Below are positions 193 to 15,387 of a DNA stretch of 22,924 nt, in pieces. Source of the DNA: Desulfobacterales bacterium (lineage in GTDB: Bacteria; Desulfobacterota; Desulfobacteria; Desulfobacterales; JAHEIW01); NCBI GenBank assembly GCA_030145015.1, contig JAQYWI010000079.1, forward strand, positions 1-22,924, written 5' to 3'. The notes below the pieces were generated by a model, which was given only the letters and a program-made list of their open reading frames with translations, did not search any database and was not told the origin of the DNA. Positions within the stretch are counted from its first letter, which is position 1. The number at the start of each line of letters is the position of its first letter. The position numbers and the translations under genes are program-made.

Positions 193-1560
193 CTAGTTTA
201 CGCCATAGGATTCAAGCTTTCTTCTCAGGGTGTTTAAACCGATACCCAACGCCCGGGCGGTGCGGGATTTGTTGCGATCCATCTGGTCGTAAACGCTCAG
301 GATGTGATTTTTTCCCACCTGGTCGAAGGTAGGAATCGTATCGGCGGTCGCAGGGTTCGCGGTCTTGGATTTCGATCTTCGTTTTCTCAGATTTTCCGGG
401 AGATGTTTTGGAGAGATGGGTCTTCCCTGAGCCATGTTCACCGACGACTGCACGATGGACCTCAATTCCCGGATGTTTCCGGGATAATCGAAGTTGAGCA
501 GCAAAGATACCGCATCTTCTTCAATGTTGGTACCGTGCGAACCGCAATATTCTTCCAGGAATTTGCCCATCAGCAGGGGAAGGTCAGCGTGCCTCTCCCT
601 CAGCGGCGGAAGGTGCAGCCAACCGCCTTTGAGGCGGTAGTACAGATCCTTGCGAAACTGCTTGGTAACAATCATGCGATCCAGATCCGAATTGGTGGCG
701 GCAATAAAACGCACGTCCACTTTGCGGGGTTTGGCTGTGCCGATCTTGATAAATTCACCGTCTTGCAGAACACGCAGCAATTTCCCCTGCAGCTCGAAGG
801 GCAGGTTGCCGATTTCGTCCATAAACAAAGTGCCCCGGTGGGTGCTTTCCAGGTAGCCCACGCGATCCTCTCTTGCACCGGTAAAGGCGCCTTTGGTGTG
901 ACCGAAAAACTGGGATTCGAAAAGCTGGGGGTTCAGCGATTCCATGTTGATAGGGGTAAAGGCGTTTCCGGCCCTGGGACTGGCCGCATGAACGGCCCGG
1001 GCCAGCAGCTCTTTGCCGGTGCCGGTTTCGCCGGTGATCAGAATGGGAATATTGCTGGCGGCGTGCAGTTCGGCTTCTTTCAGCACCCGCATCACATCGG
1101 GTGTGCGGGTAAGAATCGGCTTAAAAGCTTTTTCATTGATGAGCCTGGGCAGGGTTGTGCTTTTTCGGAGATCCAGGATTTCAATCAGGCGCCGGCGCTC
1201 CAGAGCCCGGTTGATAGCAGAGACCAAATCCTCCTTGGATATCGGTTTCACCAGGTAATCGTAGGCTCCTTTTTTGAGGCAGTCGATGGCCACCCGGGCC
1301 TCGTCCACTGCAGTGACCATGATACATTCGGTGGCCGGGCTGGTGCTTTTGATCACTTCAAGCAATTCGATTCCATTCATGTCCGGCATGGTGACGTCAA
1401 TCAAGGCGATGTCGAATTCTTCCCCCTCCTCGAAGGCGGCCGCTGCTTTGCGGGGGTCCTCTTCGGTGCGAACATTTTTGATACCGGAGGTGATCAGCCC
1501 CCGTCGAACGCTGTCCAAAAAATCCCGCTCGTCATCGACCACAAGGATGCTGCTGCTCAT
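193..1560 (-). CDS. Sigma-54-dependent response regulator, NtrC/AtoC type
   Basis: 455 aa with the classic three-domain layout. The receiver domain is at about residues 4-120, with acidic pocket D9/D10, phospho-acceptor D55, T83 and K105. The AAA+ sigma-54 activation domain is at about 148-375: Walker A GETGTGKE (177-184), the sigma-54-contacting GAFTGA loop (224-229) and Walker B GTLFMDEI (243-250). A Fis-type helix-turn-helix lies at about 415-455. When phosphorylated, such proteins oligomerise at upstream sites and drive open-complex formation by RNA polymerase with sigma-54. The start has a strong AAGGAGA site just upstream on the minus strand. It lies 123 bp downstream of the histidine kinase in the same direction, so that kinase is the likely partner. 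Its targets are unknown; no convincing -24/-12 sigma-54 promoter was seen in the spacers of this window. Confidence 0.95.
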   Translation of the reverse strand: MSSSILVVDDERDFLDSVRRGLITSGIKNVRTEEDPRKAAAAFEEGEEFDIALIDVTMPDMNGIELLEVIKSTSPATECIMVTAVDEARVAIDCLKKGAYDYLVKPISKEDLVSAINRALERRRLIEILDLRKSTTLPRLINEKAFKPILTRTPDVMRVLKEAELHAASNIPILITGETGTGKELLARAVHAASPRAGNAFTPINMESLNPQLFESQFFGHTKGAFTGAREDRVGYLESTHRGTLFMDEIGNLPFELQGKLLRVLQDGEFIKIGTAKPRKVDVRFIAATNSDLDRMIVTKQFRKDLYYRLKGGWLHLPPLRERHADLPLLMGKFLEEYCGSHGTNIEEDAVSLLLNFDYPGNIRELRSIVQSSVNMAQGRPISPKHLPENLRKRRSKSKTANPATADTIPTFDQVGKNHILSVYDQMDRNKSRTARALGIGLNTLRRKLESYGVN

Positions 1561-1683: not shown

Positions 1684-3927
1684 TCAGACTCTTGCCTTAC
1701 TCCTGCGTTCCTTGTCGGGCAGAATAACTCTGAAGGTGCTGCCCTGATCGAGTGTGCTTTCTACCTCGATATGCCCTCTTAGGCTCTCGACCAGATTGTG
1801 GGTCACGTACAAACCCAGGCCGGTTCCCTCCGCGGCTGACTTGGTGGTAAAAAAAGGATCAAAAATTTTCTGCATGGTTTTCTCATCCATCCCGCAACCG
1901 TTGTCCCGTACTTCCAATATAATACGATCCAGCCAGCTGTCACGAACCTCCACGTTTAGCTCTACCCGGGAATCTTTTTTTTCTGCGGCCTGGGCGGCAT
2001 TGACCAGAAGATTCAGCAGGATTTGCTCCAGGGCGTGAGGATCGGACCAGATGCGTGGCGGATCCTGCGGAATATCCTTGATGAAGGATTTGACATTTTT
2101 TTTGAGTTGGACGTGACAGATGGAAATCACCTTTTCGATTACCGAATTCAGATCGATCCATTCTTCTTTAACCTTATCTTTGAACTGGCTGAATTCCTTT
2201 AGATTCGATACGAAGCTATTAATCCTTTCAGATCCATGCGCAATGTTGTCCAGCAGATTGGAGATATCTTTGCGGAACTCAGGGTACGCCATACGGCCGA
2301 TTTCCAGATTCGGGTGTGTTTCGGCATAGGTGTCCGCAATGGGCATCAGTTCTTTAATGTAATCTTTTAAGATTGGAATATTAAAACTGATAAAGCTGTT
2401 GGGGTTGTTGATCTCGTGGGCGATGCTGGAGACCAGGATCCCGAGCGAAGCCAGTTTTTCACTCTGAATGAGTTGCTTTTCAAACATGCGCTGCTCGGTG
2501 ATGTCACTGATGCGCAAGAGCACATCGTTGCCATGGCTATTCTTTCCTTTTACAGGATAGACAAAAACATGCTCCAGTCTGTCCGGATCCATAAATCCCG
2601 GGCGCTCGAAGGAAATGTTTTTGCGGCTGGAGATGGCCGCGGAAACCTCACATTCTTCGCAGGGATCCAGCCTTTGCCTGAATACCAGATGACAGACCTC
2701 TTCGATCAGGTCTTGAGGTTGAGACAGGCCGTAATAGTCAGCGGCGGTCCAGTTGACCATTTTGACCTTCATGTTGGCATCCATCAGAATCAAGGGATCT
2801 GAAATGCCATCAAATATCGCCTGCAGCATAGCCTTGCTTTGTTCGATTTGTTCCTGAACCCGGATGCGCTCGTTGATTTCAGCCATCAGGCTGGTGTTGG
2901 CCTGCGCCAGTTCGCCCGTGCGCCCCTCAACCCGTTTTTCCAATTCATCTTTTGCTCTCTGCAGGGCTTCTTCTGCCCTGCTGTGCTGAATGGCCAGGGC
3001 ATAAAACTCAGCCACCCGTCCGATGGCTTCCAGATCCTGGTCGGTATAATCCGCGCCTTTATTGGCCAGCGCAATTTGACCCACCGGTGCTTCATCCAAT
3101 ATCACCGGGACTGTCAAAAGGCGTTCGACTGGAATATGGCCGCGAGGTACTCCGGCGCTGGCAAAGTGATTCTGCGGTGAATTGGTATAAAACGGTTTTA
3201 AGGTATTCAAAGAGTGCCCCCAGAGGCCATGATAGAGGCCGTCTGCCCCTATGGGAAAGACAACCTTATTGTCATCAGATACCTGGCATTGATCTTTCAG
3301 CATTTCGGTAAGGGTGTGACCGATGGCATCGCCGGTTATAGGATCAATAGAGGACACATAACCGTGTTCGCTCTGGGTTAGACTCTTGGCTTTATCCAGG
3401 ATGGTGGAAGCGATATCATCGATTGTAGCCGACGGAGAAATCAAGGGCTTGTATAGCTCTGAAAGCGCGGCATCTAACTCCAATTCCCGTTTGAGTTCAT
3501 CCTCGGCCCGCTGGCGTTCAGTAATCTCCCACTTAAGTATTGTATTGACTGCGCTTAGATCCGCGGTGCGTGCCATAACCTGCTTGTCCAAAGAGTCACG
3601 CTGCTTTATAATCGTTTCTTCGGCCCGCCGCAGTTCAGAAATATTCCGCACCAGGGTTCGAAAAAGACCAAAGTAAAGCACCGGTGATAACAAAACCACC
3701 AGCAAAGTGGCGTCAAAAAGCGCATGAAACCAGATGGAAAAGGAAGGCAGGTAGGATAAAATAAACATGACCAGGGTTTGGCCAACAAATACCGTAAATG
3801 CAATCAAAAGGACAAGTTGCACATGCGGCCGGCTGCCGGTTGATCGGCTTAATGCCATTTGCCCTGAAGACCCGATCCCCGTTCGGTTGAAAATGCTAGT
3901 GAGAATTTTTTTTGGGGAATTTTTCAC
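1684..3927 (-). CDS. Membrane sensor histidine kinase with GAF and PAS domains
   Basis: 747 aa starting at GTG (3925-3927), preceded by AGAGGAG at about 8 nt spacing. Two membrane segments lie at about residues 36-60 and 66-92. They are followed by a coiled coil (95-155), a GAF domain (about 165-315), a second coiled coil (315-365) and a PAS domain (about 365-480). The dimerisation helix has the phospho-acceptor H504 in AHEINNP. The ATPase core shows the N-box (NAAQAA, about 643), G1 box DNGCGM (675-680), F-box FDPFFTTK (689-696) and G2 GTGLGL (701-706). The periplasmic part is very short, so sensing is probably cytoplasmic, through GAF/PAS or within the membrane. The PAS domain carries C412 and C423xxC426. 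It is expected to phosphorylate the adjacent sigma-54 activator. The ligand is unknown. Confidence 0.95.
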   Translation of the reverse strand: MKNSPKKILTSIFNRTGIGSSGQMALSRSTGSRPHVQLVLLIAFTVFVGQTLVMFILSYLPSFSIWFHALFDATLLVVLLSPVLYFGLFRTLVRNISELRRAEETIIKQRDSLDKQVMARTADLSAVNTILKWEITERQRAEDELKRELELDAALSELYKPLISPSATIDDIASTILDKAKSLTQSEHGYVSSIDPITGDAIGHTLTEMLKDQCQVSDDNKVVFPIGADGLYHGLWGHSLNTLKPFYTNSPQNHFASAGVPRGHIPVERLLTVPVILDEAPVGQIALANKGADYTDQDLEAIGRVAEFYALAIQHSRAEEALQRAKDELEKRVEGRTGELAQANTSLMAEINERIRVQEQIEQSKAMLQAIFDGISDPLILMDANMKVKMVNWTAADYYGLSQPQDLIEEVCHLVFRQRLDPCEECEVSAAISSRKNISFERPGFMDPDRLEHVFVYPVKGKNSHGNDVLLRISDITEQRMFEKQLIQSEKLASLGILVSSIAHEINNPNSFISFNIPILKDYIKELMPIADTYAETHPNLEIGRMAYPEFRKDISNLLDNIAHGSERINSFVSNLKEFSQFKDKVKEEWIDLNSVIEKVISICHVQLKKNVKSFIKDIPQDPPRIWSDPHALEQILLNLLVNAAQAAEKKDSRVELNVEVRDSWLDRIILEVRDNGCGMDEKTMQKIFDPFFTTKSAAEGTGLGLYVTHNLVESLRGHIEVESTLDQGSTFRVILPDKERRSKARV

Positions 3928-4073: not shown

Positions 4074-4169
4074 ATGCCTCAGTTGTCAAGACCTTTATCA
4101 TCTGAGATTTATGTTCCGTAGGGTTTTTTTAGCGGGGATTGAACGCATAGCAGAACACCTATGAGGCTG

Positions 4170-5078
4170 CTAGGGAAAAGCTGCCAGGGCTGGTGACCAT
4201 TCCAATACCCGAAAGGTTTGCCGGTATTTGTCAAAAACTGCTTTCGGCAAGTTTAATTGGGTTTCATAATCTACCTTAACTTTGGTGAGTATGGTACCCT
4301 GCATATCGTTATTTTTCAGTTTGGCACCATATAGATCTGCCTTGGTTAACTTGGCGCCTTTGAGGTTGGCGCCTTCCAGGTTGGCGAATCGAAGGTTGGC
4401 GCCTTCCATTTTAGTGCCCTCAAGGTTGGCCCATCGCAGATCAGCCCCCTGAAAAGAAGCTCGCTGAAGTTTGGCCCCATCAAGACTTGCCCATTCAAGG
4501 ATGGTATTGTCCAGGTTGGCGTCCTGAAGATTGGCCCCATACAAATCGGCCTCGGACAGGTCGGCGCCCTGAAGATCTGCACCCTGAAGATTTATGCGCG
4601 AAAGGCAGGCCGCATAAAGATCGGCCTTCTTAAGCTTTGCATAGGCTAAATTCGCTCTTTTCCCCTTTTGCCCCTCGGATTTGAGCCAGCGTCTGTGATC
4701 ATTTAAAATCTTGTTGAGTTTATCCGGCGTTATCAGGCGCGCAGGGGTTGTACGAACTGTCGATTGCGAAAGTTCACTTTTTTCAAGGCCCCCGGGTTCC
4801 GCATTGAGTCGGTCTTTCAACCTTTTAAAACTTTTAAACGTCACCACCCGTCTGGGGGGCAGCATTATTTCAGCTCCGGTAAAAGGGCTGCGCCATCTGC
4901 GTGCTTTTTTTTCTCTAATATCGAATTTGCCGAAATGATTGATTTTAATATTCTCGCCCGATTCGAGGGTGCTTTTGATGATCTCGATGAGGGTATTTAC
5001 ACTGTGGCGGGATTTTTTCCTGGAGAATCCCGTACGGTTGGACACGGCCCCGATGATATTTGCTTTTATAAGGGTCAT
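4170..5078 (-). CDS. IHF/HU-type DNA-binding domain fused to a pentapeptide-repeat domain
   Basis: 302 aa in one uninterrupted frame. Residues 1-94 are a full-length IHF-alpha/HU-like domain. They contain the conserved HFGKFDIREKKAR strand (49-60), the beta-arm tip R-S-P65-F-T-G with the proline that intercalates into DNA in this family, and PPRRVVTFK. A linker (95-141) has the H-x2-W-L-x-S-x-G-x2-G-x-RA pattern often found ahead of pentapeptide repeats. Residues 142-266 are 25 consecutive A(D/N)LxG-like pentapeptides, enough for about six turns of the right-handed quadrilateral beta-helix, with a short cap (267-302). IHF/HU bends DNA, and some pentapeptide proteins (Qnr, MfpA) mimic DNA and bind gyrase; what the fusion does is unknown. 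Only a weak TAGGT site precedes the ATG. The gene is divergent from the T2SS operon across a 570-bp spacer. Both halves are clear; the function is not. Confidence 0.9.
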   Translation of the reverse strand: MTLIKANIIGAVSNRTGFSRKKSRHSVNTLIEIIKSTLESGENIKINHFGKFDIREKKARRWRSPFTGAEIMLPPRRVVTFKSFKRLKDRLNAEPGGLEKSELSQSTVRTTPARLITPDKLNKILNDHRRWLKSEGQKGKRANLAYAKLKKADLYAACLSRINLQGADLQGADLSEADLYGANLQDANLDNTILEWASLDGAKLQRASFQGADLRWANLEGTKMEGANLRFANLEGANLKGAKLTKADLYGAKLKNNDMQGTILTKVKVDYETQLNLPKAVFDKYRQTFRVLEWSPALAAFP

Positions 5079-5280
5079 GACGGTACCTATTTTAGTTGGC
5101 TATAGGTATGAATGGCTGGTAGTTGCTCGTGCCGGTAAGAACCCCCCTGGCTTTTCCTTCATAGTAAACTCGCTATCATCAATCAACAAGTTTTTTAAGG
5201 CCAACCGAATTTAATTCAAACCGCCGGCCAATCTCACCGGTGCAATTAAATATAAAGTTAATGATTGGGTGTTTTCAAAC

Positions 5281-5391: not shown

Positions 5392-5530
5392 TTGGTGACT
5401 CCAAAATATTATTTACATAACTTCAGCAATAATTTATTCTATGAATTGGCGGCAAAATAAAACGACCGGATCCGGAACCACACCGATAGATAATCGGATG
5501 ACAGACGTTATCAAACCTGTTATTCTTTTG

Positions 5531-5648: not shown

Positions 5649-6098
5649 ATGGTTCTAAAAATTAAAAATGGCAACCGTGGATTTACCTTAATTGAATTAA
5701 TGGTTGTTGTGGTCATTCTGGGCATCCTGGCGCTTTACATCGGGCCTAAGATAATGGGGGAACCGGAGAAAGCAAAACGGGTAAAAGTGAAAATGGATAT
5801 TGCCAGCCTGGAAACCGCTTTAAAGATGTATAAACTCGACAACGGCGTGTATCCGTCAACCGAACAGGGGCTTCAGGCTTTAGTCGAAGCACCTGAAAGC
5901 GGTGTTATACCGAAAAAATGGCGCAAGGGCGGATATATTGAAAAAAATAAAGTCCCCAAAGACCCCTGGGGAAATGAATTTGTATACATTTCTCCCGGCG
6001 TGAATGGGGACTTTGACATTATTTCTTATGGACTCGATGGTGTTCCCGGAGGCGAAGGTGATGATAATAAGGATATTAATAACTGGGAAATAGAATAA
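5649..6098 (+). CDS. gspG: T2SS major pseudopilin GspG
   Basis: 149 aa. It has a short prepilin leader ending at G11, then FTLIE with the conserved Glu at +5 (E16) and a hydrophobic helix, so prepilin peptidase would cut between G11 and F12 and N-methylate F12. The globular part has the family hallmarks: the [15 protein letters not shown] helix-loop, PKDPWGNEF, and an Asp-rich C-terminal loop that in GspG binds calcium. GspG polymerises into the periplasmic pseudopilus that pushes substrates through the secretin. The start is fixed by AAGGAG at 5633-5638. It is the first gene of the operon here; gspF, which often precedes it, is missing. The length is normal for the family. Confidence 0.97.
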
Positions 6099-6106
6099 GG
6101 AATTTT

Positions 6107-6136: not shown

Positions 6137-6292
6137 ATTTAACAAATTGAATGTAATTGGGTGCAAAAAACATAATGGCAATTCTATCAACTCTGAAGTC
6201 CTATGAATTGCTCATCTTATAGCATGTGTCAATACAAATTCATGTACCGGCAACTCCCGTTTCTACGATGTCAATTTTATAATTTTATAAAA

Positions 6293-6850
6293 ATGCTTTT
6301 AGGATATTGTAAATCCCAAGTAGCGCTCAACAACGGACAACGGACGACTAACGACGGACATGAGAGCGGTTTTACGCTACTCGAGCTGATTGTGGTCATA
6401 ACGCTGCTGGGTATCATGCTTGTTTTTACCGTCCCTCGCTTCCATGACACCCTTTTTTTAGACGAAGGCAAAAAAAGCGCCCGCTGGATTATCGGCAAGG
6501 TTCGGGCCTTAAAAGAGGCGGCCATCCGAAATCAAAAACACTATACCCTGCACATCGATCTGGATACTCAGCGGTACTGGGAAACCGATGAATCCATGTC
6601 GGCCGAGGATCGTGAGAGCGCCGCCCTGAGTGCCGTTTCTCTGCCGGGCGATCTGAAAATAGCCGACATTGAATACCCAATCCGTGGAAAAATTAATTCG
6701 GGCCAGGCGGATATAATGTTTTACAAGACCGGTTTTACGGATAAACTCCTCATTCATCTTCAAGATGATGCGGAATATATATCATTTCTGATTGAGCCGT
6801 TTCTCTCAGAGGTGACAAGATATGAAACCTACGCCAGTTTTGAAAATTAA
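6293..6850 (+). CDS. gspH: T2SS minor pseudopilin GspH
   Basis: About 185 aa from ATG 6293. An upstream in-frame ATG at 6203 would add 30 residues and give an implausibly long leader. No start has a good ribosome-binding site, so the start is uncertain. The prepilin motif is G|FTLLELIVVITLLG, with the cut after G26 and Glu at +5. The globular region fits GspH/FimT-like minor pseudopilins that sit near the pseudopilus tip. About ten leader residues (NNGQRTTNDG) are encoded by a 7-bp repeat array. It follows gspG by roughly 190 bp and precedes gspI. Identity rests on the motif plus operon order G-H-I-J. Confidence 0.88.
   Translation: MLLGYCKSQVALNNGQRTTNDGHESGFTLLELIVVITLLGIMLVFTVPRFHDTLFLDEGKKSARWIIGKVRALKEAAIRNQKHYTLHIDLDTQRYWETDESMSAEDRESAALSAVSLPGDLKIADIEYPIRGKINSGQADIMFYKTGFTDKLLIHLQDDAEYISFLIEPFLSEVTRYETYASFEN
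6328..6364. repeat. 7-bp repeat array inside the gspH leader region
   Basis: On the minus strand the units read GTCCGTC, GTTAGTC, GTCCGTT, GTCCGTT, then a partial unit. This is the inverted partner of 6107-6136. The array is in frame with gspH and codes for the Asn/Gly/Thr/Arg-rich stretch of its leader peptide. Confidence 0.6.
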
Positions 6851-6937
6851 ACTACGGGTCCAAACAAAACGACCCAATCAATTGTGCCTAGATATTTTTC
6901 TCTGATCAGTATGTATCCTCCTTTTTTTAAAAAAATA

Positions 6938-6990
6938 TTGTATAATGAGTGTTAAATTTTGTATAATAATACAAACCGGGCTTGTATAAA
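6938..6990 (+). promoter_or_regulatory. Three phased TTGTATAA direct repeats upstream of gspI
   Basis: TTGTATAA occurs at 6938, 6959 and 6982, with spacings of 21 and 23 bp, about two helical turns. The second copy is also part of a hairpin with ATACAA (6969-6974). Copies one and two contain a perfect TATAAT (-10 type), but no good -35 lies 16-18 bp upstream. It may be an internal promoter or operator for gspI and later genes, or chance in an AT-rich spacer. Confidence 0.3.
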
Positions 6991-7004
6991 AAAGTGCACA
7001 ATTA

Positions 7005-7430
7005 ATGGTTTATTCAATTTCTCGATATCGCAAAACGCAACCTAAGGTTCCAGGATTCTCATTCGGTTTCACCCTGCTTGAAGTCATGGTCGCCCTGGCC
7101 GTTATGTCCATCGTACTGGTCAGCGTATATCGCATGCATTCCCAGAGCCTGGCCATGAACACCGCTGTCCGGTTCTATACCCAGGCGCCCATGCTGGCTC
7201 AGAGCAAGATGGTTGAGATAGAGGCCCTTTCCTCAAACGCATTCCCGGAGGATTCGGGCGATTTCGGAGAAGAATTCCCCGGCTATGGATGGAAGGCCGC
7301 GATAACCGATGTCACTTCTGAGATATTGGGTGAGGTGGCCGAGGATCTAAAGCAAGTGGATATCACGGTATCGCTTAATGAAAATCAATTTATCTATAAC
7401 CTGCGTACATATAGATTCCAAAGAGATTAG
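7005..7430 (+). CDS. gspI: T2SS minor pseudopilin GspI
   Basis: 141 aa. A 21-residue basic leader ends in FSFG, followed by FTLLEVMVALAVMSIVLV with the +5 Glu. This is the typical GspI prepilin cleavage site and hydrophobic helix. The body matches GspI in size and in its early AQSKMVEIE-like segment. GspI joins J and K in the tip complex that starts pseudopilus assembly. No clear ribosome-binding site precedes the ATG; the spacer upstream (6851-7004) holds the TTGTATAA repeats. gspJ begins 18 bp downstream. Confidence 0.9.
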   Translation: MVYSISRYRKTQPKVPGFSFGFTLLEVMVALAVMSIVLVSVYRMHSQSLAMNTAVRFYTQAPMLAQSKMVEIEALSSNAFPEDSGDFGEEFPGYGWKAAITDVTSEILGEVAEDLKQVDITVSLNENQFIYNLRTYRFQRD

Positions 7431-7440
7431 GCCCAAAACA

Positions 7441-7503
7441 GAGGACAGATGTCAGAAATCAGAAGACAGAAATCAGCAGCCAGAAGCCGGCAGGCAGCCA
7501 CAG
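7441..7503 (+). repeat. Nine-unit 7-bp array that forms the start of gspJ
   Basis: The units run without slippage: GAGGACA, GATGTCA, GAAATCA, GAAGACA, GAAATCA, GCAGCCA, GAAGCCG, GCAGGCA, GCCACAG. The first supplies the AGAGGA ribosome-binding site (7440-7445), the second contains the gspJ ATG (7449-7451), and the rest encode its leader peptide up to the T before the cleavage Gly. GCAGCCAGAAGCC (7476-7488) recurs inverted at 17153-17165. Confidence 0.85.
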
Positions 7504-8159
7504 GCTTTACGCTGATGGAAGTCCTGGTGGCAATCGCGATATTGGCTGTCGTGGTGACAACCATTCTGGCATCGTTTAATGCCGTGTTTTCGACGACGGA
7601 AGTTTTAGACGAAAGCGCGGATATATATGCAATGGCCAAAAATTGTATGAAGCGCATGGTGCTTGACCTCGAATCGATCCATATCGCTCAGCGGCCGATA
7701 TACAAGCCACCGGAACTTGATCAACCGCCGGATCCGTACCGCATTGTCGCAACCACCAAAGATATCGGTGGCACGGGATTTGCACAAATTAGATTTGCCA
7801 GCAGGGCCCACGTAAGTCTGGAAAAAAGCCCCCGAGAAGGAATTGCTGAAATCATATATTACGTTCAGCCCGGAGATGAAGGGCATCCGGTCCTAAAACG
7901 CGCGGATAACCTTTACCCGTATCCGGATTTTGAAGAAAGAGGCAGCGATCCGGTATTGTCTAAGTACGTCAAATCCTTGGCGTTTAAGTTTTATGACGCG
8001 GAAGGATCAGAATACGATGTCTGGGACTCGGATTCGGATGAATCCGGTTATGCCACTCCAAAGGTCATTGCAATTCGACTGGAATTAGCAAACAATTCCA
8101 CCTCGCAAACCTTTGAGACCCGAGTATTTTTGCCTATATTGCGGGAGAAAACCGAGTAA
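7449..8159 (+). CDS. gspJ: T2SS minor pseudopilin GspJ
   Basis: 236 aa. A 19-residue basic leader ends in ATG (Ala-Thr-Gly), then FTLMEVLVAIAILAVVVTTI with Glu at +5: a prepilin peptidase site and transmembrane/assembly helix. The larger globular domain is as expected of GspJ, which pairs with I and K at the pseudopilus tip. The leader is entirely made from a 7-bp repeat array, and the AGAGGA site upstream is part of the same array with an unusually short spacer of 3 nt. gspK starts 2 nt after the stop. Identity rests on the motif, length and I-J-K order. Confidence 0.9.
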   Translation: MSEIRRQKSAARSRQAATGFTLMEVLVAIAILAVVVTTILASFNAVFSTTEVLDESADIYAMAKNCMKRMVLDLESIHIAQRPIYKPPELDQPPDPYRIVATTKDIGGTGFAQIRFASRAHVSLEKSPREGIAEIIYYVQPGDEGHPVLKRADNLYPYPDFEERGSDPVLSKYVKSLAFKFYDAEGSEYDVWDSDSDESGYATPKVIAIRLELANNSTSQTFETRVFLPILREKTE

Positions 8160-8161
8160 GT

Positions 8162-9244
8162 ATGTTAAGAATGGCAAAAACGATTCGTAACAATCGGGGC
8201 ATCGCCCTTTTGTTGACGATTTCCGTGACGACAATTCTTGTGACCCTTGCTCTGGAGTACAATCGCCGGGCACGCTTTGCGGTTGTGTCAACCGCCGTTA
8301 CAAGGGACCGTCTGACCCTTGCGCACATGGCATCTTCCGGCATTCATGCGGCCATGGCATTGCTGGCAAAAGATCGGGCGGAATCAAATATCGATTCTTT
8401 CCAGGAAGACTGGGCAAATTCAGACAAAATCAATGAATTGCTGAAAGAAATTCCTTTTGATGACGGAACACTTTCGGTCACCATTGCCGATGAAATGGGC
8501 CGAATTCAGATAAATGCCCTGGCAAAATTTCCCGATAGCCGGAATTTCAACGAATCCCAGCGCCTGCTTCTGGAGCGCTATTTAAACTATTTCAAAGATG
8601 ACACTGAAGAAACACCGGAGGATAGCCAGCCGCCGGCGATTATCAATTCACTGAAAGACTGGCTCGATTCCGGCGACGATGAGGCCATTACCGGATTAAG
8701 CGGGGCCGAATCCAGCTATTATCAGGATTTAAGTCCGCCTTACAGCTCCCGCAACGGTCCGATATCCGACATCAATGATTTATTGCTGGTCAAGGGTATT
8801 ACCCCGAAATTATTTTACGGCAGCACCGAAAAGCCTGGAATCGCGGGCTTTTTAACCGTATACGGCATGGCACCGGGAACCGGTACCTCGTTTAACTTTC
8901 CCGGAAAAATTAACGTCAACACCGCCGAACTTCCGGTGCTGGTCGCCATGCTGCCTTCTGAAAACGTGGACATGGCCCAGGCCTTTTTCGATTTGCGCCA
9001 GGAAGCCGCCTCGGATAAAGATGCCCCTGACTTATCAGACGCAACGTGGTATAAAAACATCGCAGGAATTAGCGGGATCAATCTGGATACAAATCTGATC
9101 ACCACCGCAAGTGACATTTTCAGGATTGAATCAGCGGCAAAGGTGAACAATACAGGGTTGACCGTCACAGCGGTGGTCCAACGAACCCAAAATGCAAAAA
9201 CCGGCAAATGGACCTGCAAGATCCTAAGCTGGCAAACAATTTAG
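8162..9244 (+). CDS. gspK: T2SS minor pseudopilin GspK
   Basis: 360 aa. The leader ends NNRG13, then IALLLTISVTTILVTLALEYN. As usual for GspK the +5 Glu is lacking, which fits its place at the very tip. The long body is the helical-insert GspK type: a DEMGRIQINALA motif, an NSLKDWLDSGDDE helix-hairpin region and INVNTAELPVLVAML. These match the GspK core, where two SAM-like helical domains are inserted. M4 (8171) is an alternative start. It begins 2 nt after gspJ, so translation is probably coupled. In known systems GspK caps the pseudopilus and is involved in substrate contact and assembly initiation. Confidence 0.93.
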   Translation: MLRMAKTIRNNRGIALLLTISVTTILVTLALEYNRRARFAVVSTAVTRDRLTLAHMASSGIHAAMALLAKDRAESNIDSFQEDWANSDKINELLKEIPFDDGTLSVTIADEMGRIQINALAKFPDSRNFNESQRLLLERYLNYFKDDTEETPEDSQPPAIINSLKDWLDSGDDEAITGLSGAESSYYQDLSPPYSSRNGPISDINDLLLVKGITPKLFYGSTEKPGIAGFLTVYGMAPGTGTSFNFPGKINVNTAELPVLVAMLPSENVDMAQAFFDLRQEAASDKDAPDLSDATWYKNIAGISGINLDTNLITTASDIFRIESAAKVNNTGLTVTAVVQRTQNAKTGKWTCKILSWQTI

Positions 9245-9251
9245 AGAATCT

Positions 9252-10703
9252 ATGAGCAGAAAAGTCCTCGGCATTGATATCCGAAATCACTTCCTAAGCG
9301 CGGTGATTTTAAACAGCAGCCTGCGGGAATACCGGGTGGAGGATTATATTCACCTGCCCTTTTCCGGTTCCGACGACCCTGAAAAAGGACTGGCAGCCGC
9401 TTTGGAAACCCTCGCGGGAAAAATGGATTTAGCCGGCAGCGACTGTGTCGTTTCCATTCCGGCGGGTCTTTTTACCTTCCGAAATCTTCAAGTCCCCTTC
9501 AACAATTCCAAAAAAATCAGAATGGTTCTTCCATTTGAACTTGAACCGACACTGCCCTATGCGGTGGACGACCTGGTTGTGGATTTTCTCCCCTTAAATG
9601 GCTCCCCTGACGGTGAGCAGACCGAACTCATTGCCGCGGCTATTGAAAAAAACCGACTAACGCCGTACATTGAAGCCCTGGCATCGATTGAAATCGATCC
9701 CGAAAAGCTTACATTCAGTGGTTTACCCACCGCCCTGTGTCTGGCCCATCAGGCAGATCTGGAGGAAGACCAGCTATTTATCGAAGTTGACGAGGCCTCC
9801 GGCACCCTTTTCATGCTTGCCGGCGATCGTTTGCAGCTAATTCGATCGTTTCCATTGCCGACTGCCAGCCCCTCCAAGGCAAAAATGCTTAGTACGCAAA
9901 TCCAGCAAACGCTGGCAGCCTTCCAGGAATCCTCAGAATTGAATCTTCTGCCCCTTGAGGTGCTGGCAAGCGGAATCGGGCTGGATGAGGCCAATATGGC
10001 CGCAGATATCAGCAAGGCGCTGGATATACCGGTTAAGGCTGCCTCGATGGCCGACCGTCTGGGCATCCCGGTGGAAAGCTACACGGGAAACCCCTGGATC
10101 CCGGCACAAATGGACAATGCCCTGGCATTGGCGCTGATGGAGATCGAGGGCTTCGAGGCGCTCAATTTCCACAAAGGCCAGTTTGCAGCCCAGAAATTTT
10201 TAACCAAACACAAAACCCCTCTGATAAAAGCCGGCATACTGGCAGCAGCCGTATTGGCATTGATGTTTTTTAATGTCCTGATGCAAACCTATACCGTAAA
10301 CAAACAGGTCCACGGGATCGAACACCAGATGACTCAGATCTTTAAGGCCACTTTTCCGGAAGTGAAGACGGTCCGTTATCCCTATCCGGAGATGCAGGCC
10401 AGGATGCGGGAAATAAAGAAAAACGCAGCCTTTCAGGCCGAAGCCGGTCCCCATATACGCAGCATCGATATTTTAAACAGCATCAGCGAAAAAATTCCGG
10501 ATAATATCAAGGTGGATTTTAACCGGTTGGTCATTCAGCCGGGAAATGTGATAATCTCCGGTACCACGGACGCATTCAATTATGTGGACGACATTAAAAG
10601 CCGCCTGGAACAAATCCCGTATTTTAAAAAAGTCGCCATCAGCTCATCCAACATGGATCGCTCGGGAAATGAAGTTCGTTTTATGTTAAAGGTCACATTA
10701 TAA
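9252..10703 (+). CDS. gspL: T2SS inner-membrane assembly protein GspL
   Basis: 483 aa. The cytoplasmic part (1 to about 318) has the actin-like/PilM-like fold signature: KVLGIDIRNHFLSAVIL at the start, VVSIPAGLFTFRNLQVPF and FIEVDEASGTL. One membrane span lies at about 324-346. The periplasmic part ends in a small ferredoxin-like domain (about 400-483). GspL recruits the ATPase GspE to the membrane and binds GspM. It follows gspK by 7 bp and precedes gspM by 21 bp. The cytoplasmic part resembles PilM enough that the protein can be read as a PilM/PilN-like fusion, as known for GspL. Confidence 0.93.
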   Translation: MSRKVLGIDIRNHFLSAVILNSSLREYRVEDYIHLPFSGSDDPEKGLAAALETLAGKMDLAGSDCVVSIPAGLFTFRNLQVPFNNSKKIRMVLPFELEPTLPYAVDDLVVDFLPLNGSPDGEQTELIAAAIEKNRLTPYIEALASIEIDPEKLTFSGLPTALCLAHQADLEEDQLFIEVDEASGTLFMLAGDRLQLIRSFPLPTASPSKAKMLSTQIQQTLAAFQESSELNLLPLEVLASGIGLDEANMAADISKALDIPVKAASMADRLGIPVESYTGNPWIPAQMDNALALALMEIEGFEALNFHKGQFAAQKFLTKHKTPLIKAGILAAAVLALMFFNVLMQTYTVNKQVHGIEHQMTQIFKATFPEVKTVRYPYPEMQARMREIKKNAAFQAEAGPHIRSIDILNSISEKIPDNIKVDFNRLVIQPGNVIISGTTDAFNYVDDIKSRLEQIPYFKKVAISSSNMDRSGNEVRFMLKVTL

Positions 10704-10724
10704 AAAGTAGTAAACTTACTTACG

Positions 10725-11276
10725 ATGGAATTCATCAAAAAATACCTGAATCTTAAAAAGCTCAACCGGCGCGAAAAATTTATTATATACGCTGCCGGCG
10801 GTGTTGTAGGATTGCTGATCCTGGTCCACTTTGTGGTCACACCCTTTTTTGAAAGCAGAAAACAGATGCAGCGAAGCCTGCAGACCAAAAAGGGAGAGCT
10901 TGAAGAAATGCGACGCCTTCAAGCGGAACATGGTGCCTTGCAGGAAAACCTGCAGGTATCAAAAATCCGCTTTAGCAAAAGAGAAAAGGGGTTTACCCTT
11001 TATTCGTTCCTGGATCAACTGGCCGGCCAGGCCGGAATCAAAGACCGTATCAGCTCTATGAAGCCGACAAAAACGATCCAAAAAAACAGCAATTATAAAA
11101 TTTCACGGGTGGAAATGAAATTAGATAATATCACCCTGGAACAGCTCGCCAATTACCTGTACAGCGTTGAAACATCAAAAAATATGGTCATGGTGAAGAA
11201 GGTTTCCATTTCAAAACAAGACAAAAAGCAGGGCCTCATTAACGTAATTTTGCAAGTTGAAACTCTGGAGGCCTAA
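10725..11276 (+). CDS. gspM: T2SS inner-membrane protein GspM
   Basis: 183 aa. A short basic cytoplasmic N-terminus (KKLNRREKF) leads into one membrane span (about 19-39), a coiled-coil stalk (about 42-85) and a small alpha/beta periplasmic domain, which is the GspM/PilO layout. It stabilises GspL in the inner-membrane platform. Sequence conservation is low in this family, so the call depends on layout and its place directly after gspL. It is followed by a 262-bp repeat-rich spacer. Confidence 0.88.
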   Translation: MEFIKKYLNLKKLNRREKFIIYAAGGVVGLLILVHFVVTPFFESRKQMQRSLQTKKGELEEMRRLQAEHGALQENLQVSKIRFSKREKGFTLYSFLDQLAGQAGIKDRISSMKPTKTIQKNSNYKISRVEMKLDNITLEQLANYLYSVETSKNMVMVKKVSISKQDKKQGLINVILQVETLEA

Positions 11277-11280
11277 AACA

Positions 11281-11479
11281 AAGAAGTGACTAAAGTGAAC
11301 TAAAGTTTGAAGTGACTAAAGTTACGGTGTCGCTACGCTCCATCTTTTTTATTTATTATATAATGATCGTTCGACCCAGTCGTTCGACCCAGAGGCTCTC
11401 GACGGGAGGCTCTCGACGGGAGGCTCTCGACGGGTAGAATTCCTCAACTTTAGGCACTTTAGATCACTTCCAACTTTAG
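11281..11479. repeat. Inverted ACTTTAG-motif arms flanking the gspM-gspN spacer
   Basis: The left arm has CTAAAGT at 11290, 11300 and 11316, inside two exact copies of GAAGTGACTAAAGT. The right arm has ACTTTAG, which contains the complement, at 11447, 11456 and 11473. The arms could pair around a core that holds the 13- and 14-bp tandem repeats. A TATAAT at 11359-11364 lacks a -35 partner. Confidence 0.65.
11368..11434 (+). repeat. Tandem repeats, 2 x 13 bp then 3 x 14 bp
   Basis: CGTTCGACCCAG(T/A) occurs twice (11368-11380, 11381-11393). It is followed at once by GGCTCTCGACGGGA at 11394-11407 and 11408-11421, and a third copy at 11422-11434 lacking the last base. The copies are exact or nearly so, suggesting recent expansion. 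No coding role is seen. Confidence 0.9.
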
Positions 11480-11538
11480 CGCACACGCTTTAAAGAATTT
11501 TTGATATAGATTCTGGTTATTGGTTAATTGTGTAAAGA

Positions 11539-12402
11539 ATGCAAATTTTTAAAACCCGGATTGCATGGGCGATATACATCATTTGTGCGGCCCTGTTCTT
11601 TTTTTATTATCTTTTCCCGTCCGATGCGATAAAAGACTACCTGGCGGATCAGATCCGTCAGGCGCAGCCGAATCTGACGGTGAACATTAGTCGCGTAAAA
11701 CCTGCTTTTCCACCGGGTTTAAAACTTTATAATGTCAGCGTATATCATCTGGGTCAGACTATCGCCGGTCTTGACATTTTAAAAATATCTCCGGATATTT
11801 TATCATTATTTTTGGCCACAACCCATCTAACGTTTGAGGGCAACGGCTATGGCGGAATTCTAAAGGGTCGTGCGGACATCATCAAAAACACTGCGGGCCG
11901 GGAGGTGATGATTGATGCTGATCTTACCGGAATACAGGTGAATCAAATAGAAGCATTAAGCGCCGCAACGACACACAAAATCTCAGGGAATTTGGAAGGC
12001 ACACTGACATTTAAATCGAAGAGGCCCGATCAGGCGCTAACCGGGGATCTGATCCTTACGGGCGGTCAAATCGAATTTTCACCCCCGGTATTGAATCAAA
12101 ATGTGATAACATATGATACGATCGAAGCCGAGTTGGCGCTCAAGGGTGGCTCTTTGACCATTAACCGCTTTCAGCTCGAAGGGAATCAATTGGAGGCCGA
12201 TGTCGCCGGAACGATAAAATTTAGCGATCGATCAGCCAGAAAAATTCTAAATTTATCCGGAACCGTAAAGCCGAATGCGGAACTGCTCGCCAGGCTGAGC
12301 CGGAATGCCCCGGAACTGCTCAAAGGCAGCAATCTGGAAAATCAGGGCTTTCCTTTTAGGATAAAAGGTCCCCTGGATTCACCCCAATTTTCATTTTATT
12401 AA
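11539..12402 (+). CDS. gspN: T2SS protein GspN (AsmA-like form)
   Basis: 287 aa. One membrane span near the N-terminus (about 7-27, rich in Phe/Tyr) is followed by a periplasmic beta-rich domain. Features such as FPSDAIKDYLADQI and a central repeat-like strand pattern resemble the GspN family seen in Deltaproteobacteria and Leptospira T2SS operons, which is related to AsmA-type proteins. GspN is absent from many T2SS and its role is unsettled; an accessory envelope function is likely. It comes after the repeat-filled spacer and ends 4 bp before gspC. No strong ribosome-binding site is seen. Family identity is supported mainly by this layout and its place between M and C. Confidence 0.78.
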   Translation: MQIFKTRIAWAIYIICAALFFFYYLFPSDAIKDYLADQIRQAQPNLTVNISRVKPAFPPGLKLYNVSVYHLGQTIAGLDILKISPDILSLFLATTHLTFEGNGYGGILKGRADIIKNTAGREVMIDADLTGIQVNQIEALSAATTHKISGNLEGTLTFKSKRPDQALTGDLILTGGQIEFSPPVLNQNVITYDTIEAELALKGGSLTINRFQLEGNQLEADVAGTIKFSDRSARKILNLSGTVKPNAELLARLSRNAPELLKGSNLENQGFPFRIKGPLDSPQFSFY

Positions 12403-12406
12403 TCAA

Positions 12407-13291
12407 ATGATAATGACGGCTAAAAAATACTTTATGATCGTCAATGTGCTGCTGATTACCGCAGGCGTTTATTTTGGCGTCAGCGCTTTTTACACCATCG
12501 GCACGGGTTGGTTGAGCCCCGGGGAGGCGCCGCAGGCATCTTCCAGAAAGGTGGCTTTTAAACAACAAGACGATCATCCGCCTTTGTCGCGTTATGGTGC
12601 CATTACGAAACGAAATCTATTCAATACGAACCCGGATATCGAAGTTCCTGCCCGGGCGATTAATGTTGATAATCTGAAGGAAACGGACTTAAAGCTAAAG
12701 CTTTGGGGAACGGTAACGGGACAGGATCGCAAGGCCTATGCCGTTATTGAGGATACGAAGACCAGAAAACAGGAACTGTATCGCATCGGAGATAGCATTC
12801 AAGATGCAACCGTAAAATTGATTTTAAGGCAGAAGGTGGTTCTTAGTGTAAGCGATCGCGATGAAATATTGGGGATGGAAGAAATCGGAGCTGCAAAGGG
12901 GGGTAGAGAAAGCCCGCGTGTTGCCAGCAAAGCGGCGGCCGAGCCTCCCAAAATGCCCGTATCTTCCTATCCGCGGCAGCTAACGTTGAAAAGTGATCAG
13001 ATTCAAAGTGCTCTGGAAAATCTGGATCAACTTATGGACCAGGCCCGGATCCGGCCGCATATCGAAGATGGCAAACCATCGGGAATTTCCATCACGGGGA
13101 TCAAGCCCGATACGATCTTCAGAAAAATGCGGTTGCGCAATGGAGACATTATCACGGGAGTCAACGGCGACCCGATCGAAACGGTGGATGATGCCATGAA
13201 AATCTTTGGTGACCTATCATCGACTCCCGAGGTGCAGGTCGAAATAAAACGGCGCGGACGAAAGCGGGTCCTTAATTATAAAATTGAATAG
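12407..13291 (+). CDS. gspC: T2SS inner-membrane/periplasmic connector GspC with PDZ domain
   Basis: 294 aa. One span at about 8-30 is followed by the homology region (about 62-155), which contains the RYGAITKRNLFNT motif and KLKLWGTV-like strands and contacts the N0 domain of GspD. A linker (160-200) leads to a C-terminal PDZ domain (about 205-294) with PSGISITGIKPDTIF and LRNGDIITGVNG. GspC links the inner-membrane platform to the secretin and can select substrates through the PDZ domain. ATG 12413 is an alternative start. The stop codon TAG (13289-13291) is formed by a TA dinucleotide plus the first base of a MITE-like insertion, so the original C-terminus may have differed by a few residues. 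Confidence 0.93.
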   Translation: MIMTAKKYFMIVNVLLITAGVYFGVSAFYTIGTGWLSPGEAPQASSRKVAFKQQDDHPPLSRYGAITKRNLFNTNPDIEVPARAINVDNLKETDLKLKLWGTVTGQDRKAYAVIEDTKTRKQELYRIGDSIQDATVKLILRQKVVLSVSDRDEILGMEEIGAAKGGRESPRVASKAAAEPPKMPVSSYPRQLTLKSDQIQSALENLDQLMDQARIRPHIEDGKPSGISITGIKPDTIFRKMRLRNGDIITGVNGDPIETVDDAMKIFGDLSSTPEVQVEIKRRGRKRVLNYKIE

Positions 13292-13432
13292 AAGTGGCCT
13301 CAAAACCCCATCTGAGGCCCAATGGCTGCGTTGCAGGCCTCCGATAAATGCTCACATACCCATGTATGCTGCGCGTTATCGATCGGTCTGCGCCTTGCCC
13401 TTGAACCTCATCTGAGGTTTTGAAACCACTTC
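13291..13432. mobile_element. MITE-like palindromic element with TA target duplication
   Basis: A 142-bp element. The ends are perfect 7-bp inverted repeats (GAAGTGG / CCACTTC) within longer imperfect arms of about 34 bp that contain TCAAAACC and TGAGG blocks. The inner part is also palindromic around ACATAC-CCAT-GTATGC, with CCGATAA facing TTATCGATCGG. TA dinucleotides flank it at 13289-13290 and 13433-13434, as expected for Tc1/mariner or IS630-type insertion at TA. It has no coding capacity, so it would be non-autonomous. It fills the gspC-gspD spacer. Confidence 0.7.
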
Positions 13433-13454
13433 TAAAAACAATGGTTAAAAAAAA

Positions 13455-15383
13455 ATGAAGATATATTTCAAATTTCGCTTAATGCCAACTATCGCAGCCC
13501 TGGCGGTAATTTTAACCTTTCAGTTCAGCCAGATGAAATTCAGCATGGCTCAGGAGGTCAAGTCAGGGGCACACAAGCCTGCAAACGCGGAGCAGTTTGT
13601 GTCGATTGATTTCAACAATGTGGATATCAACGTTTTTATCAAGTTTATGAGCGAGCTGACCGCAACCAATTTTGTCGTCGATCAACGCGTGAAAGGCAAA
13701 GTGACGATTATATCTCCCTCAAAAATATCGCTCAAAGAAGCCTACAAGGTATTTGAGTCCGTACTGGAGGTCCACGGCTATACCACCGTAAAAGCCGGGG
13801 ATATCGTTAAAATTGTCCCCTCACCTGATGCACGTTCGAAAAATATAAAAACCCTGCTGCGCGAGGAAGCGGCCAGCCCTGAAGATAAGGTCGTCACCCA
13901 GCTGATCCCGTTAAAATACGCCAATCCGGTTGACATAAAGCGGTTGTTCACTCCCATGGTATCCAAAAGCAGCGTGATCCTGGCCTATGAGCCGACCGGT
14001 ACGATGATTATCACGGATGTGCATTCAAACATCCGGCGACTGCTTAAAATCCTAAGGCAAATTGATATCCCGGGCATCGGGCAGGAGATTACGGTGATAC
14101 CAGTTCAATATGCGGATGCAACCAAAATGGTGAGCCTTTTAAGCACCGTTTTCAAACCCACGCGCAAGCCGGCCAAAGGTGCCCCGCAACAGGCAGTCGC
14201 CATGGTTGCCGACGAGCGCACCAACATTATTGTCCTGTTAGCCAATAACCTAGACACCCTGCGGGTCAAGCAGCTGATTGCCATGATTGACAAGGAAACC
14301 CCCCGGGGTAAGGGAAAAATCCATGTCTACTATTGTGAGAACGCAATAGCCGAAGAACTGGCCAAGGTGCTTCAAGATGTGCCGACCCAGGAAGCCGGCG
14401 CCGCTAAGGGCAAAAAGGCTGCCCCGGTGGTCTCCGGTAAAGTAAGGATCTCCGCCGATAAGGCCACCAACAGCCTGATTATCACGGCCGATCAGGAAGA
14501 CTATATGGTCCTGGAAGAAGTTATCAAAAAACTCGATATCCCGCGCTCCATGGTTTTTATCGAATCGTTGATCATGGAAGTCGACATGGATAAAAGCCTT
14601 GACATCGGTGTCGACTGGCAGGCATTCGGGGAAACCTCGATTTCCGGAAAAGAAACTGCGATTGGCGGCCAGTTTAATAGTTCACAGGGCCTCATCGATC
14701 CCGGCGCTCTGGCCCAGGGCGGCTTAACGGTCGGCTTGATCACCGAGCCAACGAATATTGCCGGGCTCATGCTTTCCAATATTGCCGCCATTATAAACGC
14801 CGTTAAAACCGACGATGAATTTCGCATTCTATCCACACCCCAGGTGTTAACCACCGATAACGAAGAGGCCCGCATCACGGTGGGGGAAAACCGGCCCTAT
14901 CAGACCCGTTCGACCACCGATCCTTCCGGCGGAACATTTGAGTCTTTTGAATACCGTGATGTGGGAAAAATATTAAAAATCACCCCGCACGTGACCGAAG
15001 GCCGTCTGGTTCGCATGCAAATTTCGTTGGAGGTGACCAACATCGATCTGGCCTCGACCTTGACGACCTCATCGACATTGCCCGTAACCCAAAAACGCAC
15101 CGTTGACACGACGGTTATCGTTAAAGACAACCAAACCGTCGTCATCGGCGGATTGATCGAGGACTCCGAGACAACAAACGAGACCAAGGTGCCCGTACTG
15201 GGCGACATTCCTGTATTGGGGTGGTTGTTTCGAGACCGGTCGGAAACAAGCACAAGAACCAACCTGTACATTTTTCTAACCCCGCGCGTGATCAAGAGTC
15301 CGGCAGAGGCACGCGAGATAATGCGGGATAAGAAAGGTCAGATGGATACCGTCCGAGAAGGCGAAATAAAATTATATAAATAA
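13455..15383 (+). CDS. gspD: T2SS outer-membrane secretin GspD
   Basis: 642 aa. A signal peptide (cut near SMA32|QE) is followed by an N0 domain (about 47-125, starting FVSIDFNNVDINVFIKFM), N1 (about 146-205), N2 (211-280) and N3 (287-362, with a K/A-rich loop at 314-330). The secretin barrel (about 363-620) ends in VPVLGDIPVLGWLFR and TNLYIFLTPRVI, the family signature. It forms a multimeric double-walled gate in the outer membrane. No lipobox is present; a pilotin gene is not seen here. No ribosome-binding site is visible upstream: the 20 nt before ATG are the edge of the MITE and an A-rich run, with a tiny MVKKK frame (13441) overlapping the ATG as ATGA. gspE follows after 4 nt. Confidence 0.97.
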   Translation: MKIYFKFRLMPTIAALAVILTFQFSQMKFSMAQEVKSGAHKPANAEQFVSIDFNNVDINVFIKFMSELTATNFVVDQRVKGKVTIISPSKISLKEAYKVFESVLEVHGYTTVKAGDIVKIVPSPDARSKNIKTLLREEAASPEDKVVTQLIPLKYANPVDIKRLFTPMVSKSSVILAYEPTGTMIITDVHSNIRRLLKILRQIDIPGIGQEITVIPVQYADATKMVSLLSTVFKPTRKPAKGAPQQAVAMVADERTNIIVLLANNLDTLRVKQLIAMIDKETPRGKGKIHVYYCENAIAEELAKVLQDVPTQEAGAAKGKKAAPVVSGKVRISADKATNSLIITADQEDYMVLEEVIKKLDIPRSMVFIESLIMEVDMDKSLDIGVDWQAFGETSISGKETAIGGQFNSSQGLIDPGALAQGGLTVGLITEPTNIAGLMLSNIAAIINAVKTDDEFRILSTPQVLTTDNEEARITVGENRPYQTRSTTDPSGGTFESFEYRDVGKILKITPHVTEGRLVRMQISLEVTNIDLASTLTTSSTLPVTQKRTVDTTVIVKDNQTVVIGGLIEDSETTNETKVPVLGDIPVLGWLFRDRSETSTRTNLYIFLTPRVIKSPAEAREIMRDKKGQMDTVREGEIKLYK

Positions 15384-15387
15384 GATC

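Follow-up and report, generated by a model that had tools for sequence, protein, structure and literature searches.

A conserved IHF-pentapeptide fusion protein encoded divergently from a type II secretion operon: a candidate local architectural regulator at gspG

A conserved and apparently undescribed protein, both halves of which are well-known folds, is encoded divergently from the type II secretion system (T2SS) operon in a 22,924-nucleotide stretch of Desulfobacterales DNA, the whole of which is hereafter termed the window. In this protein an IHF-alpha-like domain is followed by a rod of 25 pentapeptide repeats, and the evidence presented below suggests a local secretion regulator, not a protein that shapes DNA generally or shields a drug target. 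Tentatively, and at a likelihood that we place a little short of even, the fusion is interpreted as an architectural regulator specific to its lineage, one that would act on the T2SS operon and has a rod that is a candidate for docking a protein. Among the readings weighed, a local architectural regulator at gspG is the best supported.

Results

Architecture of the fusion protein

The first-pass annotation of the window had described a single frame joining an IHF/HU domain (residues 1-94, with a proline at position 65) to 25 consecutive pentapeptides (residues 142-266), and the coordinates, the Pfam matches, the repeat register and the alignment with IHF-alpha all agree with that description (Table 1). 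The same frame read on the plus strand over 4170-5078 is interrupted by stops. Bac_DNA_binding (PF00216) is matched over residues 5-92 with 86.8 bits against a gathering cut-off of 22.4, and Pentapeptide (PF00805) with 127 bits against a cut-off of 20.2. The best solved relatives of the IHF half are IHF chains (1ihf_A, E 3e-16), and in an ungapped alignment P65 of the fusion falls on position 65 of IHF-alpha (1ihf_A), which is a proline too. A search for defence systems returned a weak HU-type match alone (IHF-VHL_X, 19.7 bits).

The 25 pentads run in a single register and free of loops over residues 142-266, W196 and W216 being separated by one coil of the rod; a passage of PMC8145042 defines a pentapeptide repeat protein by at least eight contiguous repeats, a definition into which the window rod falls with its 25 repeats in register. 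An AlphaFold2 model of the fusion monomer, computed from a 33-row alignment, has a mean pLDDT of 76.5 and a pTM of 0.62. The rod is predicted with block means of 88-97, with a helix (118-133) preceding it and short helices behind, while confidence is low in the HU part (44-72 as block means for residues 1-90), as one might anticipate when an obligate dimer is folded as a single chain. Foldseek searches with the model placed pentapeptide proteins at the top of the list, IHF chains following at ranks 48-49, and gave low query-normalised TM-scores (up to 0.40) because each target spans a part of the model only. The two halves differ in net charge, which is 0 for the rod and +14 for the IHF half in the window protein, against means of -6.7 and +12.9 over 33 members.

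Table 1. Coordinates of the fusion gene, its parts and the neighbouring features. Positions are those of the window unless a locus (L) is given.
Feature	Position	Strand	Basis or remark
IHF-pentapeptide fusion gene, 302 aa, ATG start	4170..5078	-	Open frame, Pfam, at least 106 relatives
IHF/HU domain, IHF-alpha-like, residues 1-94	4797..5078	-	PF00216, IHF chains as nearest solved relatives, tree
Beta-arm tip W62-R63-S64-P65	4884..4895	-	Alignments
Capping helix, residues 118-133, with H128 and W131 nearly invariant	4680..4727	-	AlphaFold2 model, alignment
Right-handed beta-helix of 25 pentapeptides, residues 142-266	4281..4655	-	Register table, model, Foldseek
Stretch 196-216 with the most conserved rod surface (W196, R215, W216)	4431..4493	-	Face analysis, alignment
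C-terminal tail, short helices 271-275 and 279-288	4170..4280	-	Model; conserved in clade 1
NtrC/AtoC-type sigma-54 response regulator	193..1560	-	NCBIfam; no cut-off reached among the matches listed (25 of 113 families)
GAF/PAS histidine kinase, downstream of the fusion on the same strand	1684..3927	-	Pfam; neighbour of the fusion only in the window
gspG, major pseudopilin, divergent from the fusion	5649..6098	+	TIGR01710, 173.5 bits, cut-off 88.85
Remaining T2SS run gspH, I, J, K, L, M, N, C, D, E	6203..17148	+	NCBIfam, place, homologous operons
Conserved promoter-like block facing gspG, TCCAAAATATTA-TTTACA-N17-TATTCT	5400..5440	+	18 bp identical to the G532 spacer, also in G553
HTH-GspC copies	L164:10304-11812, L188:9283-11172, L203:2457-4499		Transposase-type HTH repeats before GspC
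HTH-GspC copies, BLAST only	L166:1286-3178, L189:7040-8455, L191:4238-6199

Family and phylogeny

In a search of 5.8 billion proteins both domains were found in at least 106 of the relatives listed (P0002-P0107), at identities of 45-91%; after P0107 the matches drop off to proteins that carry pentapeptides alone. Nearly all of these relatives (102 of the 106 listed) align over at least 88% of the query, and together with the window protein they are referred to as clade 1, in which a length of exactly 302 aa is found in 73 of 107 proteins. Organism labels among the listed relatives are Desulfobacterales (P0058, P0065), Desulfobacteraceae (P0073) and, for a partial protein, Calditrichae (P0088). 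A full copy and a gap-interrupted copy of the fusion are carried by genomes G553 and G532. Because of the two-domain relatives and these further copies, chance and assembly error are excluded and the fusion is real. A look at the domain architecture of relatives, as the first-pass annotation had proposed, therefore reveals no isolated artefact, the at least 106 listed relatives keeping both halves in one protein.

A second fused clade of at least 48 listed proteins was reached from a distant homologue in genome G534. With one exception, P0160, for which no precomputed pentapeptide domain is given, these proteins (47 of 48) are 255-297 aa long and have both Pfam domains. A tree of the IHF part was computed from 13 clade-1 and 11 clade-2 fusions, selected from those listed, together with 16 stand-alone proteins of seven genomes, G553d (L220), a further stand-alone protein that is cut by a gap, being omitted. 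The stand-alone proteins lie on one side of one branch (100/98) and the clade-2 fusions on one side of another (100/99). Clade 1 does not come out as a single group (2 changes), and there are several long branches, so that one fusion event would agree with this tree but is not proven by it.

Of 389 genomes belonging to the same order as G108, whose GspD was the closest (56%) among 395 genomes searched, three (G553, G532, G534) had the fusion; up to six candidates were scored per genome, so that misses are possible. None of the 395 genomes around a Desulfarculus genome gave a fusion match at 1e-50, the best 5-6 candidates per genome being scored, again with possible misses. An HU/IHF match was likewise found at 0 of 160 pentapeptide loci, which were drawn from genome contigs (80 of 548 relatives) and viral contigs (80 of 211).

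Conservation of the DNA arm and the rod surface

The two clades were compared at residues of the arm, the rod and the cap. The arm is retained in clade 1, with P65 in 105, R63 in 100 and R60 in 102 of the 107 proteins; in clade 2 it is mostly lost, P65 being present in 5 of 48 proteins and position 65 gapped in 10 of 48. The first-pass annotation had judged both parts of the window protein well preserved; in clade 2 the arm is degenerate or deleted. It had also named an IHF half degenerate in all homologues as grounds for giving up its reading, and the arm kept in the clade of the window speaks otherwise. Even in clade 1 the motif is altered: position 62 is Trp in 99 of 107 proteins, where the 16 stand-alone IHF-like proteins compared all show the Gly of a GRNP arm motif; one more stand-alone protein, a gap-cut 17th, has GRDP. 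Those 99 fusions, with W62 in place of this Gly, do not have the GRNP motif. This Trp may alter intercalation and not abolish it; it could also mean that DNA binding is lost, not merely altered. Given the degenerate or deleted arm in clade 2 and W62 in clade 1, standard IHF-like bending is not assured.

The rod and its cap are kept in both clades. On the rod, W196 is found in 105 of 107 clade-1 and 46 of 48 clade-2 proteins (151 of 155 overall), R215 in 106 and 46 (152 of 155) and W216 in 107 and 44 (151 of 155); on the cap, H128 is found in 105 and 48 (153 of 155) and W131 in 106 and 47 (153 of 155). Part of the clade-1 surface is lost in clade 2, where E220 is replaced by Arg in 39 of 48 proteins and R230 is retained in 20 of 48. 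At the outermost position (i+2) the entropy of rod face 2 averages 0.25 bits, the remaining three faces showing 1.15-1.70, and the most conserved outward positions cluster modestly (31 neighbour pairs, 22.2 expected, p about 0.02). Since W196, R215, W216 and the cap persist in both clades and the arm is mostly lost in one, what unites all members looks to be a face of the rod for contact with proteins and not the DNA arm.

Genomic context

The fusion is divergent from gspG in three of the four loci at hand, namely those of the window, G553 and G532, which bears out the divergent arrangement with the T2SS operon noted at first sight. On its other side lie the histidine kinase in the window, an HTH-bearing GspC gene (HTH-GspC, described below) together with gspF in G553, and genes that look metabolic by eye in G532. 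The fourth locus, that of the clade-2 fusion in G534, is a short contig that starts 391 bp before the gene; there gspG is not beside the fusion, whose arm is degenerate and whose neighbours are the tail of a GspC-like gene on one side and a longer HTH-GspC-like gene on the other. Among the T2SS genes of the window, gspG, L, N, C, D and E reach their NCBIfam cut-offs and gspI, K and M stay below them; gspH and gspJ have no NCBIfam match at 1e-8 and were named by place and homologous operons. The run from gspG to gspE (5649-17148) is without gspF.

No match spanning both fusion halves was found in genomes G507, G475 and G421, where the gap from the end of gspF to gspG is 43 bp (49 bp in G108). 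Absence of the gene at the gspG site is thus seen directly in these draft genomes, and its absence elsewhere in them is provisional on account of their draft state. Their T2SS proteins are mostly closer to those of the window than the proteins of G553 and G532 are: GspK identity is 72-80% against 60-63%, though GspG, at 79-83% in all five, gives no separation. Since these closer relatives are without the gene, the fusion is not needed for T2SS in general. The fusion itself is 56.5% identical to the window protein in G553 and 50.9% over 171 aligned residues in G532, and GspL and GspK range over 52-63%. By this resemblance its origin looks vertical, yet the closer relatives are without the gene and have gspF beside gspG.

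The spacer ahead of gspG

The spacer between the fusion and gspG extends over 5079-5648 (570 bp) in the window, the three carrier spacers being 570, 443 and 524 bp long. They are mostly dissimilar except for one block, AATATTA-TTTACA-N17-TAnnCT, which ends in TATTCT in the window (5405-5440), in TATACT in G553 and in TACACT in G532. It can be described as a sigma-70-like promoter with further conserved bases upstream and inside N17, and its -35 hexamer begins 95-271 bp ahead of gspG. The longest string common to the spacers of the window and G532 is 18 bp (0 of 300 shuffles as long), that of G532 and G553 is 15 bp (0 of 300) and that of the window and G553 is 13 bp (4 of 300). In eight genomes the exact core occurs once in G553 and once in G532, both times at gspG, and is absent from G534, G507, G475, G421, G569 and G108. 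With up to two mismatches there are 16 matches in these genomes (the two exact ones included) against 5 for a reversed control, and in G553 alone 5 against 4; with 16 against 5, looser copies are neither clearly special nor clearly absent. At the fusion-less T2SS loci of G507, G475, G421 and G108 the block was not found within seven mismatches. Only such absences are independent evidence, because the consensus was built from the three carriers. A simple promoter scan of 3800-5700 gave five promoter-like sites against 3.0 expected and did not single out the block, so that the case for it rests on conservation. The block could also be no more than the promoter of gspG, its conservation owing nothing to the fusion.

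Seven imperfect inverted repeats are present in the window spacer, which the first-pass annotation had called palindrome-rich. The description stands for the window; with the relatives, only the repeat at 5403-5438, overlapping the conserved block, is shared, the other six having at most 10 consecutive bases in common with the spacers of G553 and G532. Palindromes and terminator-like stems at 5209-5391 are likewise absent from those spacers, and no RNA element of Rfam was matched in the window. An IHF site in the spacer is not claimed, as matches to the consensus WATCAANNNNTTR in the window do not exceed chance: 36 were counted where 26.8 are expected, and 8 of 100 shuffles had as many. A sigma-54 promoter before gspG, looked for because of the NtrC-type neighbour, was also rejected, the best matches reaching 7 of 13 positions in the window, 5 in G553 and 6 in G532. 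Elsewhere in the window, which also has the NtrC-type regulator gene, a perfect sigma-54-type match, TGGCACGGGATTTGCA (13 of 13 scored positions), lies at 7769-7784 within the gspJ frame.

HTH-GspC, a linked GspC variant

Beside the fusion of G553 is a GspC with two N-terminal helix-turn-helix (HTH) repeats (HTH_32 and HTH_21 above cut-off), a long hydrophobic helix, T2SSC and weaker PDZ matches; the HTH-GspC of G507 also has HTH_32/HTH_21 repeats above the Pfam cut-offs. In P0240, a close relative of the G553 protein, IS481/IS3 transposase models match over the repeats, the IS481 score of 67.7 bits lying below the cut-off of that model (224), and the GspC models are slightly under theirs (126 of 150 and 100.7 of 101.6). 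A profile of 17 HTH-GspC relatives matches GspC PDZ structures, and one repeat matches Sleeping Beauty transposase (E 0.00033). In a structure model the repeats are predicted as helical bundles with good local confidence; among the 50 Foldseek matches listed for it there was no HTH protein, PDZ-containing proteins appearing instead.

The family comprises 286 relatives at E 1e-3, of which 120 were listed. When the 106 fusions were compared with these 120, at least seven pairs had exactly equal longest-contig sizes and a shared source, against a mean of 0.56 and a largest value of 5 over 200 other offsets; for contigs over 5 kb, there were at least six pairs against a mean of 0.085 and a largest value of 2. 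The counts are lower bounds, 166 of the 286 HTH-GspC matches lying outside the 120 compared, and the pair P0044/P0342 (3456), with no shared source, was excluded. One linked pair includes P0007, which is 83% identical to the window protein. In G553 the fusion and HTH-GspC are next to each other, as are the clade-2 fusion and its HTH-GspC-like neighbour in G534, where the genes beside the fusion resemble HTH-GspC by BLAST and reach no Pfam HTH cut-off. The window has no HTH-GspC, and G507 and G499 have one and no detected fusion. Among the nine genomes matched, HTH repeats were matched only in G553, G507 and G499 (and by BLAST in G534); in G446 and G488 it is the GspC part that matches, and the proteins of G416, G420 and G503 look like ordinary GspC.

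Several related HTH-GspC-like copies of variable size (about 470-790 aa) are present in G534. They adjoin genes of redox proteins that are putatively exported, namely Cu-oxidase_2 with fn3 and, twice, di-haem CCP_MauG (L166:3949-8313, L189:4256-6646, L191:6546-8096), as if each were paired with its own secretion substrate. A remnant of a clade-2 fusion, a broken C-terminal part with an internal stop, directly follows one of them (L191:3879-4214). An AAA ATPase with a SPOR domain, which we take to resemble the GspA/ExeA partner of type II secretion, adjoins HTH-GspC in G499 (L203:4894-6333) and a GspC-part match cut by the contig end in G488 (L204:1933-3315).

Discussion

Divergently transcribed local regulators of operons are a general pattern, and the position of the fusion relative to gspG is of this kind. 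We propose that the IHF-alpha-like half would pair either with a second copy or with a stand-alone IHF-like protein, and that it would contact the AT-rich DNA that separates the fusion gene from gspG, on or close to the conserved block, with a possible change of gspG transcription. The loop-free pentapeptide rod would then serve as a rigid arm that shows its conserved Trp/Arg face to a protein partner, not as a DNA mimic; the partner might be the cytoplasmic part of the genetically linked HTH-GspC, RNA polymerase or another regulator. The suggestion in the first-pass annotation of a regulator or scaffold at bent DNA gains from the conserved synteny and the promoter-like block; its bending component is less secure, for the reasons given with the arm. 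A more far-reaching version of our proposal, which we consider unlikely, is a secretion-coupled DNA-binding module of a hitherto undescribed kind: the rod would dock onto membrane-anchored HTH-GspC with its transposase-derived repeats in the cytoplasm, and through the periplasmic HR/PDZ part a T2SS would signal directly to promoter DNA, that of gspG in one clade and that of genes for putatively secreted redox proteins in the other.

On another reading of the linkage with HTH-GspC, the fusion could join with that membrane-anchored protein in tying T2SS, or its substrate genes, to the nucleoid, with position or secretion state and not promoter activity as the output. The excess of same-source contig pairs, the neighbouring genes in G553 and G534, the HTH repeats of G553 and G507 and, in P0240, the IS481/IS3 matches with the long hydrophobic helix and GspC/PDZ parts behind them would all fit such a tether. 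We consider it unlikely nonetheless: the window has no HTH-GspC, two genomes have HTH-GspC with no fusion detected, the G534 repeats are seen by BLAST only, equal contig size is an indirect sign of one contig, and a tether would not need the spacer at gspG. HU/IHF ancestry would also suit a nucleoid-associated protein of general function that bears an additional rod, has nothing to do with secretion and stands beside gspG by inherited chance. This is more improbable still, as the carrier genomes retain one or more stand-alone IHF-like proteins, the gene is rare yet found at gspG in the clade-1 loci seen, and the arm loss of clade 2 would be odd in a general bender. A slightly smaller chance is given to an IHF half that acts as a dimerisation module only, with DNA binding lost in every clade; the clade-2 arm and the W62 replacement agree with it, against which stand the P65, R63 and R60 of clade 1 and the strongly basic IHF half of that clade.

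The idea of gyrase protection by a DNA-mimicking rod, raised in the first-pass annotation, fared worst, and a gyrase or topoisomerase modulator of the Qnr/MfpA type seems to us very improbable. The fold class is the same, QnrB1 and MfpA chains appear in the Foldseek results from rank 14 on, the monomer model has C-terminal helices (271-275, 279-288) as in relatives that dimerise head-to-head, and by charge sums the rod is mildly acidic in most members; MfpA, in section 2.3.1 of PMC8145042, has a DNA-like electrostatic surface. Against this, Qnr-group models score 24.6-50.5 bits where their cut-offs are 240-500 (Qnr 40.9 of 240, and QnrC, best of the Qnr group, 50.5 of 500), the MfpA model scores 42.2 of 360, and the 13 best Foldseek matches are designed solenoids and cyanobacterial proteins, with no gyrase inhibitors. 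The window rod is neutral and loop-free, and only 3 of the 13 most conserved outward residues are acidic, outnumbered by Trp, Arg, Gly, Tyr and Asn. Gyrase mimicry is accordingly unlikely, and the local architectural regulator at gspG is the reading that we retain.

The fixed combination, its two clades, the Trp/Arg face and the ties to T2SS indicate a function beyond what either family accounts for. Should the rod prove to be a docking arm, pentapeptide repeat proteins would acquire a testable role in transcription, and if the link to HTH-GspC is functional, the secretion machine may act directly on DNA. A precise function is known for only a handful of pentapeptide repeat proteins, according to a passage of PMC8145042. 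Literature searches found no description of an IHF-pentapeptide fusion, in accord with the first-pass annotation, whose author knew of no described function for the architecture.

Comparison with known systems

With IHF-alpha and HU (PF00216) the fusion has in common the sequence family, the F49-G50 core and a basic two-strand arm with P65. It differs from them in its length of 302 aa and in W62 for Gly, its carriers keep stand-alone copies too, and it stays below the NCBIfam cut-offs of the IHF-alpha equivalogs (87.5 of 111 and 76.4 of 120.25 bits). The right-handed quadrilateral beta-helix and the C-terminal helices of its model are those of the solved pentapeptide proteins (Rfr32 2F3L, Np275/276 and HetL; MfpA, QnrB1 and AlbG), whereas its rod stands behind an IHF domain, is loop-free, bears a Trp/Arg ladder and falls outside the gyrase-inhibitor families. 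In HU-CCDC81 and HU-HIG of Pfam an HU domain is likewise part of a longer protein, but the fusion scores under their cut-offs (17.3 of 26.1 and 15.1 of 26.2 bits) and their descriptions are without a pentapeptide part. With divergent local regulators the fusion loci share the back-to-back order, the common spacer and the promoter-like block; no known regulator of this kind with the architecture of the fusion was found, and it is their arrangement that the gspG loci resemble.
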